A stretch of DNA of 47,239 bases, taken from NCBI GenBank assembly GCA_028279425.1, contig JANQNV010000017.1, positions 1 through 47,239 of the forward strand. Reading direction: 5' to 3'. Numbering within the stretch: position 1 is the stretch's first letter; each line of letters opens with the position of its first letter. Below, one piece after another: positions 9,689 through 20,701 of the stretch. The notes beneath the pieces were generated by a model. It worked only from the letters and a program-made list of their open reading frames with translations. It was not told where the DNA came from and did no database searches. Both the position numbers and the translations under genes were made by a program. Source of the DNA: Longimicrobiales bacterium (lineage in GTDB: Bacteria > Gemmatimonadota > Gemmatimonadetes > Longimicrobiales > Gaopeijiaceae).

Positions 9689-10279
9689 TCAGGCTCCGGT
9701 CACGCCCGCCTCACCATCGGCCGACACGACGAAGTTGAGCCACATGCCGCTGACCGCGTGGCCCGCGATGTAGCAGACCATGGAGTACTCACCGGCCTCG
9801 GACGCCACGAACGAAACGGTCGTGGACTGGCCCGGGAGCGTCGCCTCGGTCATCGACGTCGGGTTCTCCGAGATCGCGCCGTCGAACACCGCGACTGCCT
9901 CGACCATGGCCGGAGCCGTCTCGAAGCCCTCCGAGATGCCGATCGAGTGCGCCATGTTCGGGTCTTCATTCGAGAAGTTGATCGTGACGTTGGCGCCCAC
10001 GGGCACCGTGATCGTCATCTCGCCGAACTGCGAGCCGTTGTAGTTCCAGTAGTTCCCGCGGTCGGTCTGACCGGCCACGATGTCGAGCGTGACGTTGTCG
10101 CCGTCCATGGTGTACCAGGAAGGCATCGTCATCTCGCCCGAGGCCGCGGGAGCCGGAGCCTCGGCGGGAGCCTCCGCAGGAGCGGCGGCCTCGGCCGGGG
10201 CCTCGGTCTCGGCAGTGTCGGATCCGCCACAGGCGGCCAGGCCGAAGAGAAGAGCAGTGGAAAAGACTGTACGCTTCAT
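9689..10279 (-). CDS. Sulfocyanin-like type 1 copper lipoprotein
   Basis: A 196-residue blue-copper protein. The N-terminus has a signal with lipobox LAAC, giving lipidated Cys17, then an acidic Ala/Pro/Glu linker (about 21-48). The cupredoxin domain spans about 50-190. The type 1 copper ligands can all be placed: H111 in AHSIGI, then C169, H174 and M179 in CxxxxHxxxxM spacing. The stretch NYWNYNGSQFGEMTITVPVGA resembles the sulfocyanin core that follows the first strands. It should be a one-electron carrier tethered to a membrane facing the periplasm. GAGGA precedes the ATG. It is a single-gene unit with its own terminator. A nitrosocyanin- or plastocyanin-like assignment is less likely. Confidence 0.85.
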   Translation of the reverse strand: MKRTVFSTALLFGLAACGGSDTAETEAPAEAAAPAEAPAEAPAPAASGEMTMPSWYTMDGDNVTLDIVAGQTDRGNYWNYNGSQFGEMTITVPVGANVTINFSNEDPNMAHSIGISEGFETAPAMVEAVAVFDGAISENPTSMTEATLPGQSTTVSFVASEAGEYSMVCYIAGHAVSGMWLNFVVSADGEAGVTGA

Positions 10280-10480: not shown

Positions 10481-11662
10481 TCAAGAGGAATAGTACGCCG
10501 CGTTTTCGTCGACATAGCCGTGCGACAGGTCGCATCCCCACGCCCGCGCGTGATCGGCCCCGACGCCCAGGTCGACCTGGAGATCGACCGTTTCGTCGAG
10601 CAACGCCGACCGCACCTCCGCCTCGTCGAACTCGGCGCGCCGCCCGGCATCCACGACCCGCGCGCCCGCGATGGTCGCCGACACCCGCTCCGGCTCCACG
10701 CGGGCGTCCACGCACTTCCCCACCGCCATCAGGATGCGGCCCACGTTGGGGTCGCCTCCGTGCACCATGGTCTTGATCAGAGGGGATTCGACGAGACTGC
10801 GCGCGACGGCCCGCGCATCGCCGGGGGTGGAGGCCCCCGCCACGCGCACACGAAGCAGCCGCGTGGCCCCCTCGCCGTCGCGCGCGAGCATCTCGGCCAT
10901 CGCGGTGCACCCGTGGAGGAGCGCCTCCTCGAACACATCGGCATCCACGGCCCCGCTGCGCCCGTTCGCCAGAATGGCGCAGGTATCGGACGTGCTCGTG
11001 TCGGAGTCGACCGAAAGCATGTTGAAGGTGCGATCGACCACGCGACGAAGCATGGCGTCCAGGGGACGGGCGTCGACCTCGGCGTCGGTGAAGATGAAGA
11101 CGAGCACCGTGGCCATATCGGGCGCCACCATCCCCGAGCCTTTCGCCACCACGGTGATGGTCACGGGCGTGTCGTCGCGGCCCCGCACCTCGCACGACCA
11201 CGCCTTGGGGTGCGTGTCGGTGGTCATGATTCCGCGCGCGCCCACCAGCGGATCTTCCTGCAACCGCCGGCCGAGCCCCTCGATCCCGGCCTCGATGCGG
11301 TCGATCGGAAGGGGCACGCCGATCACACCCGTGGAACTCATCAGCACCCGTTCGGGAGCGATCCCCAACTCCGCGGCGGCGGCCGACGCCATGCGCCTCG
11401 CCGCCTCGATGCCGTCGGGGCCCGTCCCCACGTTGCTGACCTTGGAGTTCGCGACGATGGCCTGGAGCGATCCGGCGGCGATCCTCTCCCGCCCCACCAC
11501 GATCGGGGCACCCGGAAAGTGGTTGCGCGTGAACACCGCAGCCGCCGAAGCCGGGACGTCGGAGGCGAAGAGGGCGAGGTCGTCGCCATCTTCCTTCAAC
11601 CCGCACGAGGTGGCGGCGCAGCGAAAGCCCAGGGGGAGCCGAGCCACCGAGTGTGCTTTCAA
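10481..11662 (-). CDS. argJ: Bifunctional glutamate N-acetyltransferase / N-acetylglutamate synthase
   Basis: A 393-residue ArgJ. It transfers the acetyl group from N-acetylornithine to glutamate in arginine biosynthesis; some members also use acetyl-CoA. The self-cleavage and catalytic motif [12 protein letters not shown] is at 174-185, with T185 as the predicted N-terminal nucleophile of the beta subunit after autoprocessing. The oxyanion-hole motif STGVIG lies near 110-115, and the C-terminus ends AAYYSS as usual. The start is TTG at 11662 with no clear ribosome site; a GTG five codons later is the alternative. A 46-codon frame ends 12 bases upstream in the same reading frame, so coupled initiation is likely. 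No other arginine gene is nearby apart from tRNA-Arg. Confidence 0.95.
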
Positions 11663-11966: not shown

Positions 11967-12040
<74 letters not shown>

Positions 12041-12568: not shown

Positions 12569-15500
12569 CTACCACCCCGCGCCGAGCACGTCCACGCGCA
12601 CGCTCCACCGCCGCACGGGTGGCTGCGTCATGAAGTCGCGCTGCAAGACGCCCACGGCCCCGAATTGGTTGACCTCGGGGTCCATCCCGGAGTAGTCGGT
12701 CCACAGAGCCAGGTTCTGCCCCACGAGGGTGACCCGCAGCCCGGCGTCTCCCATCGACGCCGAGCGAGACGCCCAACCGATCGAAGCCTGCGCGAGGCGC
12801 CAGAACGACGCGTCTTCGATGAAGCCCGCCTCCGTCTCGAAATCGGGCGGGAAGATCGCCGCGGCCTGGGCCCGAGCCTGCTCCGCCAGCGGTGCCGACG
12901 CATCGTTGAAGCCGCGACAGAGGGTGACCTGGCAACGGTAGCCCTCCGTGAGGTTGCGCAGGTGGTGACCGCCCCGGTGCTGCAGGCGGGCCGCGAGCGA
13001 CCAGCGACCGACGCTCAGACGCGAGGCTACGGCGATGTCACGCGACGGATGGGGAGACCCGAGGAAGCGGGCGTCGGGCTCGACGTTGATCTCCGACGGG
13101 ATCAACACGCCGTCACCGTCGCGATCGGCCCACGACAGCGCCCGATCCCAGTACCCCGCAAGCGGGTATCCCGGCACCGTCCACTGTACTCCCTGTCGGA
13201 TCTCGGGCGCCTGCGACTCTCCCGGCAGGGGCTCGAGACGGAGGACCTCGTTGCGGGGCCACACGGCCGCCACCGACGCCACCCAACGCCAGGCCCCCTC
13301 GACCACCAGGGGCAGCTCTGCCCAGGCCTCCCATCCACGGTCGCGGAGTGCGCCGATGGGGTCGTAGCGGGCCTCGTCCTGCGCCTGCGCGAAGAGGAGC
13401 GGAGTGCGCAGAAGCAGGTCGTCGACGGTGCGCGAGTACCGGGTCAACGTCACCGCCGCGCCACTCGAAGCGGGGGCCCATCGCACCGACGTTTCCCACG
13501 CCGTCACCCGCTCGAGAGGTGGGTCCTGGTCGGGCCTCAGAGAGACGCGGTCGAGGTCGCGCCCGTCGTCGAGCGGCACGGCCGCACCCCGACCCCACGA
13601 CGCCTCGATCGACAACCCGGCCGGCCACCACTCGCGAACCGGTCCCCCGCGCGCGGGATCGAGCGACACCATCCCCCACGGCAGGGCCACGGCGTCGTAG
13701 CGCGCCCCGAGCGCCCGGCTCTGCTCGACTCGCACCCCGACCGCGAGCGCGACACCGGGGCGGGCGAGCTGCTGCGTGGCCGATAGCGCCACGGTGCGAC
13801 GCCGCCCGTCGAGCACGACGCGGCTCTGGTCTGTCGCGTCGCTGAACGCCCCCCCACCCGCTGGGAGCCCCACGCCCCGTTGGTCGAGCCGATCGAAGTC
13901 CGACTCCCACACGTCGGCTGCCAGGCGCGTCCTCGCCCGGCGATCGGCGCGCCCCGACCAGTCGGCCCACACCGCCGCCGAAAGCGATCCGGTGCGTATG
14001 GTCGTCCGGTCCTCGTCGGCGATGCCGCGGGGAAGGTCGGGGCCGAGATCGACCACCTCGGGAGGCACGCGCTGCTCGTCGTCCCGCACGACGTGGTCCA
14101 GCCCCGCACCGATCTCCGCCTCGACTCTCGACGAGAGACGAGACGAGAGTCGAACGCCGGCGTTCCAACGACGTACGTCCTGTTCGAGGCGACGCGCGTA
14201 GACCTGGCCCGGATCGAACAGCCGGTAGCCGTAGTTCGCGTCGGGGCCCCCCTCGGCGAATCCGAGCAGACCGGCGGGGTGCAGGCCCGCGAAGTCGTTG
14301 CCGTCGTGGACCCGCCGCACCTGTCCATCGGCGATCCCCAACCACACGCGCGCATTGGATCTCGCGCCCAGGGCGAGGCGCCCCCCCACGTCGGCACGCG
14401 TCCAGCGAACACCGTCGGGAGCCGCCGCATCGGTCGGATCGGCGAAAGGGGTGGAGCCGAGCACGCCCTCATCCGTGTCGTGCGTCACGCCGAGGGCGAT
14501 GTCCGCCCCTCCCACGCGCGTGTGCACTCGCGCCCCGGTCGCGAAGGTGCGACCCACCCGAAAGGGCGTGCTCTCGGCCGCGGAGAGCGGACCGTAGCGC
14601 TGGAGCTCCGTCTGCGTGCACCGCTCGAGCGCCGCTTCGTACGCGAAGCAGGCGCCCGTGCCCTCTCGGCCGAACCAGTTGTCCGGACGGTCCGCGACGT
14701 CTTCCACCTGGCCCAGGCTCACCCAACTCGCCAACCGCGTGCCTCCCGACGGAGCCGAGGCCCCCACCCCACCGACCGCAGCCGCCCGCGAGGTGAGACG
14801 AATCACGGCGGTGTGGACCCCCGCGCCCCAGAGGGCGGCAGCCGAGGGACCCCGGATCAGCTCCACCTCGGCGAGCGACGAGACCGCGATGTCGTCGAGA
14901 CGGTGGGGCGCCTGGCCTCCGACGGCGATCGAGGTGGAGCGGCTGCCGGACTCGATGCGGACGCCGTCGAGAACCACGATCGGCTCGTTCGACAGCGACA
15001 ACGACGTGGGACCACGCACCCGCAGACGCGGGGCCGCGCCGGGCAGCCCCGACGACGCCATGACCTGCAGACCGGGAAAACGACCGGCCAGCCAGCTCGT
15101 CAGGGTCTCGCCCGCCCCCTCGCCAGGCGAGAGGCGGACCACCTGGGCGGCCGCCGGCTGCGCACCCGCGAGGCAGAGGAACACGACGGCCACGAGCCCG
15201 AGCGCACGTCTGCGGTTGGCGCGACGAAGCAGGACGGTACCGATCGCGAGCGCGATCCCCGACCCGATGGCCGTACCCGGCTTGAGCAGCAACACACCTC
15301 CCACCGCGAACATCGCCCCGAACAGAATCAGGAGTCCCGCCGCGACGCGTTCGAGATCGGCCGCGAGCGACCCATCGGGCTCGACACCCGTACGCGCACG
15401 CTGCACCGACCACCCCGGACCGCCCGGGCGCACCTTGCGATAGAACGCGTCGAGTCGTTCCGGGGTCTCGGGGGCCGTCGCCAGCATCACGGGCACCCAC

Positions 15501-16954
15501 ACGGCCGTGGTCACGCCAGCGGTCACCAGCAGCCGCAGCCCGAAATCGGAGATGGTCAGGACGGGCACGACCGAGGTGAGGAGCCCGACGAGGAAGCCCG
15601 CCACCATCGCGGCGAGCTCCGACCAGGCGTTCACGCGCCACCAGAACCAGCGCAGGATCAGCACGAGTCCCGGGCCGGTCCCGACCGCGATGATCAGTCG
15701 GAACAGCGTGGTGACGTTTTCGCTGTAGAAGGCCGCGGCGGCGCCCAGCGCGGTGACCAGGACCGACGCGATGCGTGCGGCGGCGAGTCGTTCTCCAGCC
15801 CCGGCGTTCGGTCGCGCGAAGCGGAGGTAGAGGTCGTGCGTCAGATACGACGCCGACCAGTTGATCGTGGTCGACACCGTGCTCATGAACGCCGCGACCA
15901 GGGAGGCGACCACCAGCCCCAGCACCCCGGCCGGAAGGAAGTCGAGCATCAGCCGGGGGTAGCCGAGCTCCGGATCGGCCAGGTCGGGATACAACACCAC
16001 AGCCGCCAGAGCCACGATGATCCAGGGCCAGGTGCGCACGACGTAGTGGAGGAGATTGAAGAGCCAGGCCGCCTTCTGAGCGTCGGCCTCGGTTCGCGCT
16101 GCGGCGAGCCGTTGCACGAATTCCCCGCCTCCGTCGGAGCGCCGGAAGGCCCACCACTGGAGTCCCACGTACGCCAGAAACGTGGACGCACTGATCCCCG
16201 CCAGCGACGACCAGACGATCCGCCCCCCATCGCCGATGCTGAGCGGGGTGAAGGCCAGGAGGTCACGCCCTTCCACCGCCGCGGCCCCCGCCACGAGGTC
16301 GCCGAGCCCCCCGAGATGCGAGACCGCCGCGAAGGCGACGAGGAGCGCGCCGGCCATCCCCAGCACGAACTGCACGAAGTCGGTGACGACCACGCCCCAC
16401 AGCCCGGAGATGCCCGAGTAGACGAGCACGAGCGCCGAGACCCCGGTGACCACCCAGAGCCGATCCTGATCACCGGACAGGCCGAGGGCCGGCAGCACCT
16501 CGAGGGCGTCGATCACCTTGACCATCGCAAGCATCGAGAGGCCCAAGGTGATGGGCCCGAGGACACCGGCGAAGAGGAACCCCTTCACCCCGCGCAGGAG
16601 TGCGGCGGGGCGACCGCCGTAGCGGAGCTCGCTGAGCTCGTTGTCGGTCACGACCTCGGCGCGCCGCCAGAGGCGGGCGAAGACGTACAGGAGCACCACG
16701 TGGGCCACACCGAAGCTCCACCACTCCCAGTTGCCGGCGATCCCGCGTGTGCCGACCACTCCGGCCACATAGAGCGGCGTGTCGATGCTGAAGGTGGTCG
16801 CCGCCATCGACGTACCCGCGAGCCACCACGGAAGCGACCGTCCGCCGACGAAGAAGTCCTCGAGACTCCCGGACGCCCTCTGCGCCAACGCGACCCCGAC
16901 CGCCAGGGTGGCGACGAGGTATCCGGCGACGACCCAGAGATCGAGCGAGGTCAA
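12569..16954 (-). CDS. Fusion: sodium/solute symporter plus TonB-dependent receptor
   Basis: One unbroken 1461-codon frame. Residues 1-580 are an SSS-family symporter with many transmembrane helices and family signatures such as [12 protein letters not shown] (33-44) and [13 protein letters not shown] (357-369). Residues 581-604 (Arg/Asn-rich start, then a hydrophobic run ending AQPAAAQ) look exactly like a signal peptide. Residues 612-725 are a SusC-like TonB plug domain ([46 protein letters not shown]). About 730-1461 are beta-barrel sequence ending in the expected terminal aromatic, Trp. The parts belong in different membranes. Cleavage at the internal signal could free the receptor; alternatively a stop/start has been lost by mutation or assembly error. 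No ATG, GTG or TTG lies at the junction before the signal. The start is TTG at 16954, with a weak ribosome site. The substrate is unknown. Confidence 0.82.
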
Positions 16955-17143
16955 GACGAATCGGGGTGTGAGGTCGGCCGGCGCATGCCCGGGAAGCTAG
17001 AACGGTGAAACGGCGTGCGCGACGGCTACTCCTCGGCGACGCAGGCACTTGCCCCGGGTCGCGCCGCCTCGGAAGTTGAGGCGTTCAGGGTCTCGCGCCC
17101 TCCCCGCGCGACCGAATCGTTTCCGAGGAACTCGCGCTGGTGG

Positions 17144-18412
17144 ATGCCGCGACTGTTCGGGCTTCGGGTCCTGATACCGACGAATACACCGTTGTTGGCG
17201 GCCTCGCGTGGGCTCACGCTGGCGGCAACCGTCGTGCTCGCAGGGGCGACCGCGCTTGCGGCTCCGAGCGCACTCGCAGCGCAGGCACCCGCCGACCACG
17301 ACCCCGACGGGTGCTCGCTTTGCCACGGTGAGGTGGAGCTGCTGCGGCAACACGTGCCCACCCTGGCGGACGCCGAACGCTTCACCGTCACCGAAGAGGT
17401 GATCGCCGCATCGGCCCATGTAGACGAATCGTGTTCGTCCTGCCACTCGGGCTACACGCGCTGGCCGCACCCCGACGACGGGCAAACGGAGTCGTGCGTC
17501 TCGTGCCACGAAGAGCAGGCGGAGCTCTTCGATCTGGGCATCCACGCCCACCCGCTGTCGACCTCGATGGAGCCGGCCGCCTGTGTCGACTGTCACGGCA
17601 CGCACGCGGTGCGCACCCTCGAACAGTTGCGCGACACCGCGGGCATTCACGCGATGAATGCCAACTGCGTGTCGTGTCACGAGACCCAGAGTCTGGCGCT
17701 GCACGACCCCCACGCCGACTCGGTGTCGTGCGCCGGCTGCCACAGCCCCCACGACACTCGCGGTGTGGGGCAAGCCACCTCGGCCATCGCCCCCATGAGC
17801 CAGGCCGCGACCTGCGGGGTCTGTCACGAAGAGGCAGCCGAAGCCTTCCCCCTCGACGCGCACGGCGCCGCGCTCTCGACCTCCGGTCTGCGGACGATCC
17901 CCGCTCTCGACTCCGTCGGTTACGACGCCGCTCCGACGTGCACCACCTGTCACGGCGGCCACGACATGCTGGCCGTCGAGGCCCCCGACGCGATCGTGCT
18001 CCATGTGGACGGCTGCGCCAACTGCCACATGGTCGAGGCCGAGCGCTACTTCGGCACATACCACGGGAAAGCCACGGCCCTCGGGTCGCATGTGGTGGCG
18101 TCGTGTGACGACTGCCACGGCGCCCACGGCATCTACGCCTCCACATCGCCCGAATCGTGGCTCCACGAAGAACGGGTGATCGAGACCTGCGCCACCTGCC
18201 ACGAGCAGGCCCGGCCGGCCTTCGTGAGCTACGATTCGCACCCCGATCCCATGGATCCGGACCGCAACGGGCCCCTCTTCATGGCCTTCATCGGGATGAA
18301 CACGCTGCTGTTCGGTGTCCTCATCGTCTTCGGGCTGCACACCTTCCTGTGGTGGGTGCGGATCCTGATCGACCAGCGGCGGCCGAAGGCCGACGGAGGC
18401 CACCATGGCTGA
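17144..18412 (+). CDS. Membrane-anchored undecaheme c-type cytochrome
   Basis: A 422-residue protein with an N-terminal signal (about 15-47, ending SALAAQ) and 11 CxxCH heme-binding motifs (CSLCH, CSSCH, CVSCH, CVDCH, CVSCH, CAGCH, CGVCH, CTTCH, CANCH, CDDCH, CATCH). Several distal His-containing GTH, GGH and GAH stretches could give bis-His ligation. A transmembrane helix near 385-412 anchors the C-terminus, with a short basic tail inside. It should carry electrons in the periplasm at the inner membrane. Its end overlaps the cytochrome b gene by 8 bp. The start is uncertain: the ATG at 17144 is used, while the frame is open back to 17015. I cannot place it in a named catalytic family, and no CxxCK site is present. 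Confidence 0.88.
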   Translation: MPRLFGLRVLIPTNTPLLAASRGLTLAATVVLAGATALAAPSALAAQAPADHDPDGCSLCHGEVELLRQHVPTLADAERFTVTEEVIAASAHVDESCSSCHSGYTRWPHPDDGQTESCVSCHEEQAELFDLGIHAHPLSTSMEPAACVDCHGTHAVRTLEQLRDTAGIHAMNANCVSCHETQSLALHDPHADSVSCAGCHSPHDTRGVGQATSAIAPMSQAATCGVCHEEAAEAFPLDAHGAALSTSGLRTIPALDSVGYDAAPTCTTCHGGHDMLAVEAPDAIVLHVDGCANCHMVEAERYFGTYHGKATALGSHVVASCDDCHGAHGIYASTSPESWLHEERVIETCATCHEQARPAFVSYDSHPDPMDPDRNGPLFMAFIGMNTLLFGVLIVFGLHTFLWWVRILIDQRRPKADGGHHG

Positions 18413-19310
18413 TCGGTCGGGCGCCTTCGACGCCCCGGCGCTCACGCCACTCGACACATCCCAGCGGGGCGACGGCCCGTTCATCTGGCGCTTCACCCTG
18501 TTGCACCGGCTCGTCCACGCACTGGCGATGTCGACGTTCTACATCCTGGTGCTCACCGGGATTCCGCTCCGCTTCAGCTGTGCGCCCTTCTCGGCCGCGC
18601 TGATGAATCTGTGGGGCGGCGTCGAACGGGCAGGCTTGATCCACCGCATCTCGGCCGGGGTCATGGTCGTCTACTCCTTCGCCTTCCTCGGCTGGTTGGC
18701 GGCGCGGTTCGTGGTGGCGAAAGACAAGCTGGCCTGGCTGCGCGGATACGACAGCATGGTGCCCGACCTCCAGGACGCCCGCGACTTCATCAAGCAGTGG
18801 AAGTGGTACTTCACCGGTCGCGATCGCCCTCGTTTCGGTCGCTACGGCTACCTCGAGAAGCTCGACTTCTTCGGAGAAGTGTGGGGGCTGGTGATCATCG
18901 GCGGATCCGGGATGGTGCTCTGGTTTCCGGAGTTCTTCTCGCGCTGGCTCCCGGGGTGGGCCTTCAACGTGGCGACGGTGTTTCACGGCTACGAGGCGCT
19001 GATCGCCGCCGGCTTCATCTTCATCGTGCACTTCTTCAACGTGCATCTGCGCCCCGACAAGTTTCCGCTCGACGCCGTCATGTTTCACGGCCGGGGCACC
19101 CTGGAGTACATGGAAGAAGAGCACCCGGCGCTGGTCGACGAGATCGAGGGACGCCTCGACGGTCCCGTCTCGCGGCAGCCGAAGCTCGACCACCCGGCCC
19201 CGCCGCCGACGGCCGTCCAGACGGTACTCGGCGCTGTGCTCGGCTTCATCGCCCTCGGCATCGGGGTGCTCTGCATCGGGCTGATCTTCTGGGCGGTGCT
19301 GTTTTGCTGA
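18405..19310 (+). CDS. Membrane cytochrome b subunit (FdhI/HyaC/b561-like)
   Basis: A 301-residue inner-membrane protein with five predicted helices near 30-55, 76-102, 155-175, 187-215 and 271-300. His residues that could hold two b-type hemes lie in HRLVHA (34, 38), HRISA (80), HGYEA (194) and HFFNVH (209, 214). It resembles the di-heme cytochrome b subunits that pass electrons between quinones and a periplasmic partner. It overlaps the 11-heme gene by 8 bp and the 12-13-heme gene by about 7 bp, so the three proteins are almost surely made together. The direction of electron flow (quinol oxidation or quinone reduction) cannot be told from sequence. The C-terminal fifth helix beyond the usual four is an addition. 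Confidence 0.87.
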   Translation: MADRSGAFDAPALTPLDTSQRGDGPFIWRFTLLHRLVHALAMSTFYILVLTGIPLRFSCAPFSAALMNLWGGVERAGLIHRISAGVMVVYSFAFLGWLAARFVVAKDKLAWLRGYDSMVPDLQDARDFIKQWKWYFTGRDRPRFGRYGYLEKLDFFGEVWGLVIIGGSGMVLWFPEFFSRWLPGWAFNVATVFHGYEALIAAGFIFIVHFFNVHLRPDKFPLDAVMFHGRGTLEYMEEEHPALVDEIEGRLDGPVSRQPKLDHPAPPPTAVQTVLGAVLGFIALGIGVLCIGLIFWAVLFC

Positions 19311-20701
19311 GCCCGTGCGGGAGGGGGCGGCCGTACCTGCTCCTCGCCGCGTTGACCGCAGGGGCGCTGGCCGCGGGGGCGCTGGGCTGCTTCGCCCCCG
19401 AGTCGGCCTCGGTGGCCCGCTCCGTCGACGACCCGCATCGCGACGTGGCCTGTGCAGAGTGCCACGACGGTCCACTGTCGGACCGACGCATGCCTCAGGT
19501 GACCTCCGGTACGTGCACCACCTCGGGCTGCCACAGCGACGGCGGGCCACGGGTCGTCGAGCTGGCCTCGGTCGCCTTCGAGCACCGCGACCACGGCGCC
19601 GACTCGGTCGCGCCCATGGGCTGCGCAGGGTGCCACACCCACTCCGATCCGTCAGCGCCCCTGGTGGCGGCGGTCGATGCCTGTTCGTTCTGCCACATCG
19701 GGCGTCAGGCGGCAGGACGCACGGGCGAGTGCCGGCTCTGCCATACCGACCCGGAGCATGCCCCGCTCACCAGCCAGCGGGTCGCCATCCCGCACGACCA
19801 ACTGTCGTGGCTCGACGGAGGTTGTGTTCGCTGCCACTACGACGTGACCGAACCCCTCCCCACCGTGTCGACGCTTCGCTGCGCCGCCTGCCACACCGAC
19901 GTCGATGCGGTCGTGCCGGCCGGCACCGGGCCCGGACCGGAGCTGCACGAGAGCCACACCTCGGCATCGTGTGTCTCCTGCCACGAAAATGGTGCCCACG
20001 AGATCCGCGCCATGTCGTCGGTGGTGCAGCTGGCGTGTGTGGACTGCCACGCCGAGGTGCACGACGTCGGGGTGAGCGCGGGGTTCCCCACGCCCGAGAC
20101 GTGCAACCACTGCCACGCCGACAGCCACGCCGCGCAGCAGCGGCTCGTTCTGGGTCTGGCCGCCGGGGTGGAGGGCGCGTTCCCGAGCGAAAAGTTCGTG
20201 ACGGGCCTCACCTGCCGGTCGTGCCATCAGGCTCCGGCCGGCGCCGATCCTACCGTGGCGGTGGTGGGCAACCCCGAAAGCTGCGTCACCTGTCACCGCC
20301 GCGAGTACGCCACGGTGGAGCGGTGGTGGCGCGAGGGTTCGGCCACCCGTCTGCGACGCGTGGAGGCGGCACTCGATGCAGCGCGCGCTCGGTTGCGTGA
20401 CACCGGCGAGGCCCCCGCCCTCGCCCTCGCGCAGGCGGACCAGTCGGTGACTCTCGTGCGGGAGGCCGGCGCGGTCCACAACCTCGCCTTCGCCCACCGC
20501 CTGCTCGAAGGGGCCCTCGAACGGGTGTCGGAGGCCTACACCGCCGCCGACCGCTCACCCCCCGCCACCCCGGACCTCGGCCGGCGCCCGTCGCAGGGGG
20601 TCTGCACGTACTGCCACTTCCGCGCCGACGATCCCTGGGTCTTCCAGGACATGTCGGGCCCGTTCCACCGCGACGTGATGCGGCTGGAAGCCGGGCGCTG
20701 A
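19304..20701 (+). CDS. Exported multiheme c-type cytochrome, 12-13 hemes
   Basis: A 465-residue protein with 12 CxxCH motifs (CAECH, CAGCH, CSFCH, CRLCH, CVRCH, CAACH, CVSCH, CVDCH, CNHCH, CRSCH, CVTCH, CTYCH) and one CTTSGCH, a CX4CH variant that may hold a thirteenth heme. An N-terminal hydrophobic segment (about 11-28) ends AGALGC and may be a lipoprotein signal, though the lipobox is atypical. Residues about 340-420 form a heme-free, Ala-rich helical insert before the last CTYCH. The TTG at 19304 is the only plausible start that keeps this signal; it overlaps the cytochrome b stop. Probably the outer partner of the cytochrome b/11-heme unit. No catalytic signature is recognised. Confidence 0.85.
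   Translation: MLSPCGRGRPYLLLAALTAGALAAGALGCFAPESASVARSVDDPHRDVACAECHDGPLSDRRMPQVTSGTCTTSGCHSDGGPRVVELASVAFEHRDHGADSVAPMGCAGCHTHSDPSAPLVAAVDACSFCHIGRQAAGRTGECRLCHTDPEHAPLTSQRVAIPHDQLSWLDGGCVRCHYDVTEPLPTVSTLRCAACHTDVDAVVPAGTGPGPELHESHTSASCVSCHENGAHEIRAMSSVVQLACVDCHAEVHDVGVSAGFPTPETCNHCHADSHAAQQRLVLGLAAGVEGAFPSEKFVTGLTCRSCHQAPAGADPTVAVVGNPESCVTCHRREYATVERWWREGSATRLRRVEAALDAARARLRDTGEAPALALAQADQSVTLVREAGAVHNLAFAHRLLEGALERVSEAYTAADRSPPATPDLGRRPSQGVCTYCHFRADDPWVFQDMSGPFHRDVMRLEAGR

Follow-up and report, generated by a model that had tools for sequence, protein, structure and literature searches.

In Bradyrhizobium the FbcH polyprotein joins cytochrome b to cytochrome c1 and carries an internal signal, at which signal peptidase divides it. 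Sodium symporters of the SSS family (which we take to be TC 2.A.21) and plugged barrels of the SusC/RagA type both have solved members, among them vSGLT from Vibrio (2xq2) and RagA. Here we describe a gene in which a symporter and a barrel of these two kinds share one reading frame. It lies in a stretch of 47,239 nucleotides from a Longimicrobiales bacterium of the phylum Gemmatimonadota (assembly GCA_028279425.1, contig JANQNV010000017.1, positions 1 to 47,239), hereafter the window, where a single uninterrupted open reading frame (ORF) of 1461 codons on the minus strand (12569-16954) runs from a TTG start to a TAG stop. Coordinates are window positions, those of the fused gene's parts are all on the minus strand, and residues follow the numbering of the 1461-amino-acid fused protein. 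We hold it probable, though well short of certain, that the product is a polyprotein that would be split by signal peptidase I at an internal signal, and that its symporter half probably takes up, along with sodium, a sugar derived from peptidoglycan.

The preliminary description of this locus had placed a symporter, a plug and a barrel ending in Trp within one frame of 1461 codons, and the ORF, the Pfam SSF and Plug matches and AlphaFold2 all bear this out. The symporter core (residues 1-494; 15473-16954) matches Pfam SSF at residues 34-453 with 103.6 bits (cut-off 22.8) and, by eye, has about 13 hydrophobic segments. Its nearest solved relative is vSGLT, the Vibrio sodium/sugar symporter, and S358/T359 align with S364/S365 of 2xq2, the one residue pair compared and presumably part of the sodium site. 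The symporter's final two hydrophobic segments, recognized by hydropathy and shared in alignment with solo orthologues (residues ~538-576; 15227-15343), are followed by the basic segment RRANRRR (577-583; 15206-15226), which would serve both as the C-terminal tail of the symporter and as the n-region of the internal signal. Next come the predicted h-region (584-600; 15155-15205), a hydrophobic peak in all four copies of the fused gene, and a motif-based signal peptidase I site, A601-A602-A603|Q604 (15143-15154), with the predicted cut between 15146 and 15145. The predicted mature outer-membrane protein (604-1461; 12572-15145), SusC-derived as judged by alignment, AlphaFold2 and Foldseek, holds the plug domain (617-712; 14819-15106; Pfam Plug, 32.0 bits, cut-off 23.9) and a modelled 22-strand barrel (~740-1459; 12578-14737). 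In all four fused genes the last residue is Trp (1461 in the window copy).

When 58 relatives were searched, uninterrupted full-length homologues were recovered at 66-68% identity from three more genomes of the same genus (G001, G002 and G004), placing the fusion in four of the six genomes of that genus at 65-68% identity, with one copy on a single-contig assembly of 4.2 Mb. The preliminary description had suggested seeking junction-spanning proteins, or else two separate genes, in related genomes: the former are these unbroken frames, and as to the latter, G003 carries the symporter alone (75% identity) and in G005 neither half was found at that similarity. Beyond the genus, overlapping draws of Gemmatimonadota genomes (handles G000-G436) were surveyed by scoring the best 3-10 candidates per genome. 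A junction-spanning query returned the fusion in at least 4 of 121 family genomes and at least 4 of 154 order genomes, and a profile of the junction region in at least 4 of 394 class genomes and at least 3 of 395 in a phylum draw that lacked G004; the fused copies topped the rankings by a wide margin, and all four are confined to the one genus. In a collection of named genomes, which may omit the window's own, a barrel profile kept 79 loci, two of them fused and both from Gemmatimonadota (JAHHMJ010000660.1 and JAUIEJ010000004.1, the G004 and G001 copies); the flanks of the remaining 77, examined for up to 6 kb, gave no symporter match at an E-value of 1e-5.

The four fused copies share a start position, and the alignment places the join at the symporter's native C-terminus, the point at which solo symporters terminate. 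In a tree of 25 symporters the four fused symporter halves form one clade (100/100), whose sister is the solo symporter of G003 (100/99), nested among solo symporters. Since the fused halves make up one clade inside the solo symporters, the tree indicates a single fusion event, which arose once inside a solo clade and has been kept since. Behind the solo symporter of G003 no remnant of a broken fusion was seen, a convergent permease gene following directly, and among 31 unfused symporter matches, spread over 29 loci, the frame stays open for at most 140 codons past the match and never reaches a barrel. Runs of N (masked stretches) were seen inside genes at L034:10124-11587 and at L171, one of these interrupting the GH3 gene next to the solo symporter of G003.

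The frame bears the marks of coding sequence right across the junction. Third-position GC (GC3) stays high through it in all four copies (0.78-0.98 in the segments measured), and the junction indels are whole codons. Over codons 575-604, a short stretch with high dS, dN (0.33-0.77) lies below dS (0.88-1.60) in six of six pairs, with differences at codon positions 1/2/3 of 0.44/0.30/0.59. By these measures translation continues across the junction. Several other long frames were considered as further fusions and rejected. In G040 (C435), G146, G259 and G379 they are upstream stretches left open by chance, with GC3 low and codon-position composition non-coding, such frames reaching up to 865 codons in other high-GC genomes, and those in G026, G034 (C3) and G040 (C638) are solo TonB-dependent transporters with extra upstream open codons. 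The window also has an antisense open frame over the fused gene (13880-17008, plus strand, 1042 codons), which we put down to high GC.

At the junction the order of elements is RRANRRR, a hydrophobic stretch and AAAQ (601-604), and the signal-peptide-like segment claimed in the preliminary description proved to recur: a basic run, a hydrophobic stretch and an AxA-Q-type end are present by eye in four of four copies, although junction identity is 48%. The signal ends read AAAQ, AAAQ, LAAQ and GSAQ, and the features of a signal peptidase I substrate (n-region, h-region, small residues at -3/-1) can likewise be picked out by eye in all four. A Tat signal was rejected, the RR motifs seen by eye not being common to all copies. 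By hydropathy and the positive-inside rule, counted by eye, the basic tail should be cytoplasmic and the stretch that follows it should export the downstream part. AxA-Q-type ends were also found in 21 of 87 signal-like N-termini from Gemmatimonadota loci (shuffled mean 4.7, maximum 11 in 500 shuffles), a set gathered with a crude filter and including, among the 60 inspected, some that are clearly not signal peptides. Such ends are common in Gemmatimonadota loci and resemble the Q-rule of Bacteroidetes, whereby glutamine regularly follows the cut, though not across the entire FCB group, as given in the accessible part of PMC5837995.

Taken together, the junction suggests the following route. 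The fused gene, with no stop between its halves, would yield one polyprotein, whose sodium symporter would be synthesized first and enter the inner membrane, leaving RRANRRR on the cytoplasmic side. This tail, together with the hydrophobic stretch after it, would serve as an internal signal peptide, with cleavage by signal peptidase I after A603 (AAA|Q), and the protein released from Q604 onwards would cross the periplasm and fold as a plugged 22-strand barrel in the outer membrane. The predicted products are an inner-membrane symporter of 64 kDa and an outer-membrane barrel of 92 kDa. Between the predicted cut and the Pfam plug match there are only 13 residues, which, given the width of the periplasm, would not let the plug reach the outer membrane, and a cut would therefore be needed. 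The signal-peptidase reading of the junction is supported indirectly. What the data show is a continuous, conserved frame under selection, the identity of its domains and the gene setting of the solo symporters; the topology, cleavage, outer-membrane localisation, substrate and TonB independence of the fused protein we infer.

The second half was called a TonB receptor in the preliminary description, which is too strong a name: its plug and 22-strand barrel are of the SusC/RagA type, but the TonB box and the N-terminal extension of SusC proteins are missing. By sequence its nearest solved relatives are SusC/RagA (5fq6, RagA), and an AlphaFold2 model of residues 590-1461 (27 rows in the alignment) has a plug and 22 long strands at moderate confidence (pTM 0.73, mean pLDDT 64.7), for which the best Foldseek hits were SusC and RagA chains at TM-scores of about 0.6-0.7. 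Against TIGR04056 the barrel scores 92.4 bits, under the curated cut-off of 368.25. Six of six aligned solo Gemmatimonadota barrels run from a signal peptide through an N-terminal extension of about 75 residues, which in place and length, as read from the alignment, matches CarboxypepD_reg-like, and a TonB box (e.g. DEIVITATGEQR) to the plug. This extension is absent from the window copy and from the other three fused copies in the alignment, where the first plug strand (604-607 in the model) follows directly on the signal. Of 84 loci searched with a strict motif, 71 contain a TonB box, and the other 13 comprise the two fused copies of that set and 11 solo barrels in which near variants were seen by eye; the window and G002 copies, which lie outside that set, have no TonB box by eye. 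TonB_C proteins occur in all six genomes of the genus. For Bt1763, the accessible part of PMC7782687 reports that TonB-box mutants were judged non-functional and that deletion of the extension halted growth for 24 h. The fused barrel is thus derived from a TonB-dependent transporter and should not be classed as an ordinary one, and because it has neither extension nor TonB box, ordinary TonB-driven import is not predicted for it.

The first half can be placed through its solo orthologues, whose setting, like the missing extension and TonB box of the barrel, is new beyond the preliminary description. At 23 solo orthologue loci, several of which end at contig edges, a search with named representatives found a NagZ-like GH3 gene in 20, AnmK in 17, MurQ in 15 and an amidase in 14; two NagZ-like proteins scored 184 and 167 bits, under the curated NagZ cut-off of 207. 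Clusters of murQ, anmK, NagZ-like GH3, SSS symporter and amidase occur in several Gemmatimonadota families (e.g. L040, L041, L166 and L167; further examples among the 23 are L169, L172, L175 and L177), and at L037, L040 and L042 another gene adjoins the symporter with recycling genes present too. As the solo orthologues lie among peptidoglycan-recycling genes, the ancestral substrate was likely a cell-wall sugar, and the solo symporters are candidate sodium-coupled importers of peptidoglycan sugars, AmpG-like in role. According to the accessible text of PMC9790009 AmpG is replaced by other importers in other bacteria, and that of PMC6987092 reports AmpG absent and AnmK present in Rhodothermus marinus. 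The peptidoglycan-sugar reading holds well for the solo family and less well for the fused members, which have left the recycling cluster; MurQ and AnmK lie elsewhere in the genome, together, in G001, G003, G004 and G005.

Several observations weigh against the proposal of a cleaved polyprotein with a sugar-importing symporter. In the stretch examined beside the fused gene GH3, AnmK, MurQ and amidase are all absent at four of four loci, and of these four genes only GH3 adjoins the sister solo symporter of G003. A search of the window's own genome (89.8% complete) gave neither AnmK nor MurQ, and in G002 AnmK is present and MurQ was not found; it is for the fused members that the substrate assignment is weakest. 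The AlphaFold model of residues 1-735 (3 rows) is uninformative, with a pLDDT of 38. The barrel is fast-evolving, with dN of 0.37-0.48 against 0.05-0.09 in the symporter core. At the junction one copy has Leu at -3, and in-frame start codons lie nearby, at unconserved places, with a Shine-Dalgarno-like GGGAGG, seen by eye, before GTG554/TTG555 in the window copy.

These start codons raise the alternative of nested translation, in which internal starts (e.g. GTG554, TTG555 and GTG588) would yield a separate barrel that carries a signal of its own, while some read-through would still give the full-length chain. The preliminary description had noted no ATG, GTG or TTG ahead of the signal, which stands for residues 556-587 of the window copy, where one would look for the start of a signal peptide with a basic n-region, but does not extend to GTG554 and TTG555 just upstream or to GTG588 and GTG591 inside the hydrophobic stretch. 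In every copy the last 60 or so codons before the barrel include in-frame GTG, ATG or TTG codons, which together with the GGGAGG speaks for nested starts. However, apart from ATG548 their positions are not common to the four copies, the G001 copy has no start codon between 575 and 606, a start at ATG548, itself within a symporter helix, would put two hydrophobic segments ahead of the signal, and with no stop between them the symporter would still be joined to the barrel every time; we regard this alternative as quite unlikely. Far less credence still is due to an error of sequencing or assembly, or to a stop freshly lost by mutation in one strain. The preliminary description had offered a lost stop/start pair as one of its two explanations, and it has the odd architecture in its favour and nothing further. 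The fusion persists in four assemblies at 65-68% identity, including a single-contig one, with conserved neighbours and one symporter clade, and since the frame, the codon-position composition and dN below dS all continue through the junction, assembly error is excluded and the whole explanation is next to negligible.

As to the second half, the strongest competing view is that the barrel is a decaying passenger, tolerated and then degraded or misfolded, behind a functional symporter. Its fast divergence and the absence of both extension and TonB box would fit, yet the barrel codons contain no stop or frameshift in any of the four genomes at 52-56% identity, dN/dS is about 0.40-0.55 in six pairs, 22 strands are predicted, and many plug and C-terminal residues, including the terminal Trp, are invariant among the fused copies, so that we consider decay rather unlikely. 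The TonB box is missing exactly where a symporter is attached, and cleavage is so far a prediction from sequence, which together leave some room for an uncut chain, whose plug would stay tethered to a symporter pulling in place of TonB or which would bridge both membranes. However, the residues separating the plug from the last membrane segment are too few to cross the periplasm, and a signal-peptidase-type site is kept in four of four copies, making such a tether highly improbable. We therefore retain cleavage at the internal signal as the favoured reading of the fused gene. A bolder extension, one-gene two-membrane import, would have signal peptidase yield a sodium symporter for peptidoglycan sugars plus a TonB-free SusC-type barrel, its extreme form being the uncut chain in which the symporter replaces TonB as partner of the plug; this we offer tentatively, as an idea with rather less than even chances.

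In the surroundings of the fused gene, the four copies share the same neighbours, which in the window are a tRNA-Arg(ccg) (11967-12040, minus strand), argJ (10481-11662, minus) and a gene for a cupredoxin-like protein with a SoxE domain (9689-10279, minus). These occupy the position where a SusD-like partner was looked for, the gene after solo barrels being lipoprotein-like and resembling SusD by eye; of two such genes tested, neither gained a Pfam assignment. Running divergently from the fused gene are multihaem cytochrome c genes (Cytochrome_C7; 17015-20701, plus strand), amid which a membrane protein (18405-19310) has no Pfam match. At the locus examined in G001 a 148-residue protein, barely more than a Plug domain (PF07715; L032:6969-7415, plus strand), adjoins the 3' end of the fused gene.

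Set beside known systems, the parts of this gene are familiar and their fused architecture is apparently new, at least to us; among the matches listed in the open-access literature there was no report of a symporter/TonB-transporter fusion or of an SSS-family muropeptide importer, and no paper on FbcH, nor was one found in the accessible part of PMC6256036. With the SSS family and vSGLT (2xq2) the first half shares a full-length SSF domain and the aligned S358/T359, and it differs in that its C-terminus continues stop-free into an export signal and barrel and in that its genomic kin stand among peptidoglycan-recycling genes. The second half has the plug and 22-strand barrel of SusC/RagA proteins (BT2264, BT1763 and RagA); in contrast to these it lacks the N-terminal extension and TonB box, ends in Trp, scores below the TIGR04056 cut-off and forms the C-terminal half of a symporter. 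The solo symporter's probable role, import of peptidoglycan turnover products, is that of the muropeptide importers AmpG and YejBEF-YepA, at least as the accessible part of PMC9790009 presents them, although it belongs to the SSS family and not to the MFS or ABC importers, and its role is read from neighbouring genes only. For Gemmatimonadota, these solo orthologues suggest that cell-wall recycling employs an importer of the SSS family. FbcH resembles the fused gene, as interpreted here, in being one bacterial gene with two membrane-associated products and an internal signal cut by signal peptidase, whereas both of its products reside at the inner membrane in one complex and the barrel of the fusion is predicted for the outer membrane. 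If cut as proposed, the fused protein would be a bacterial polyprotein with products in different membranes, their one-to-one production forced by the shared frame.

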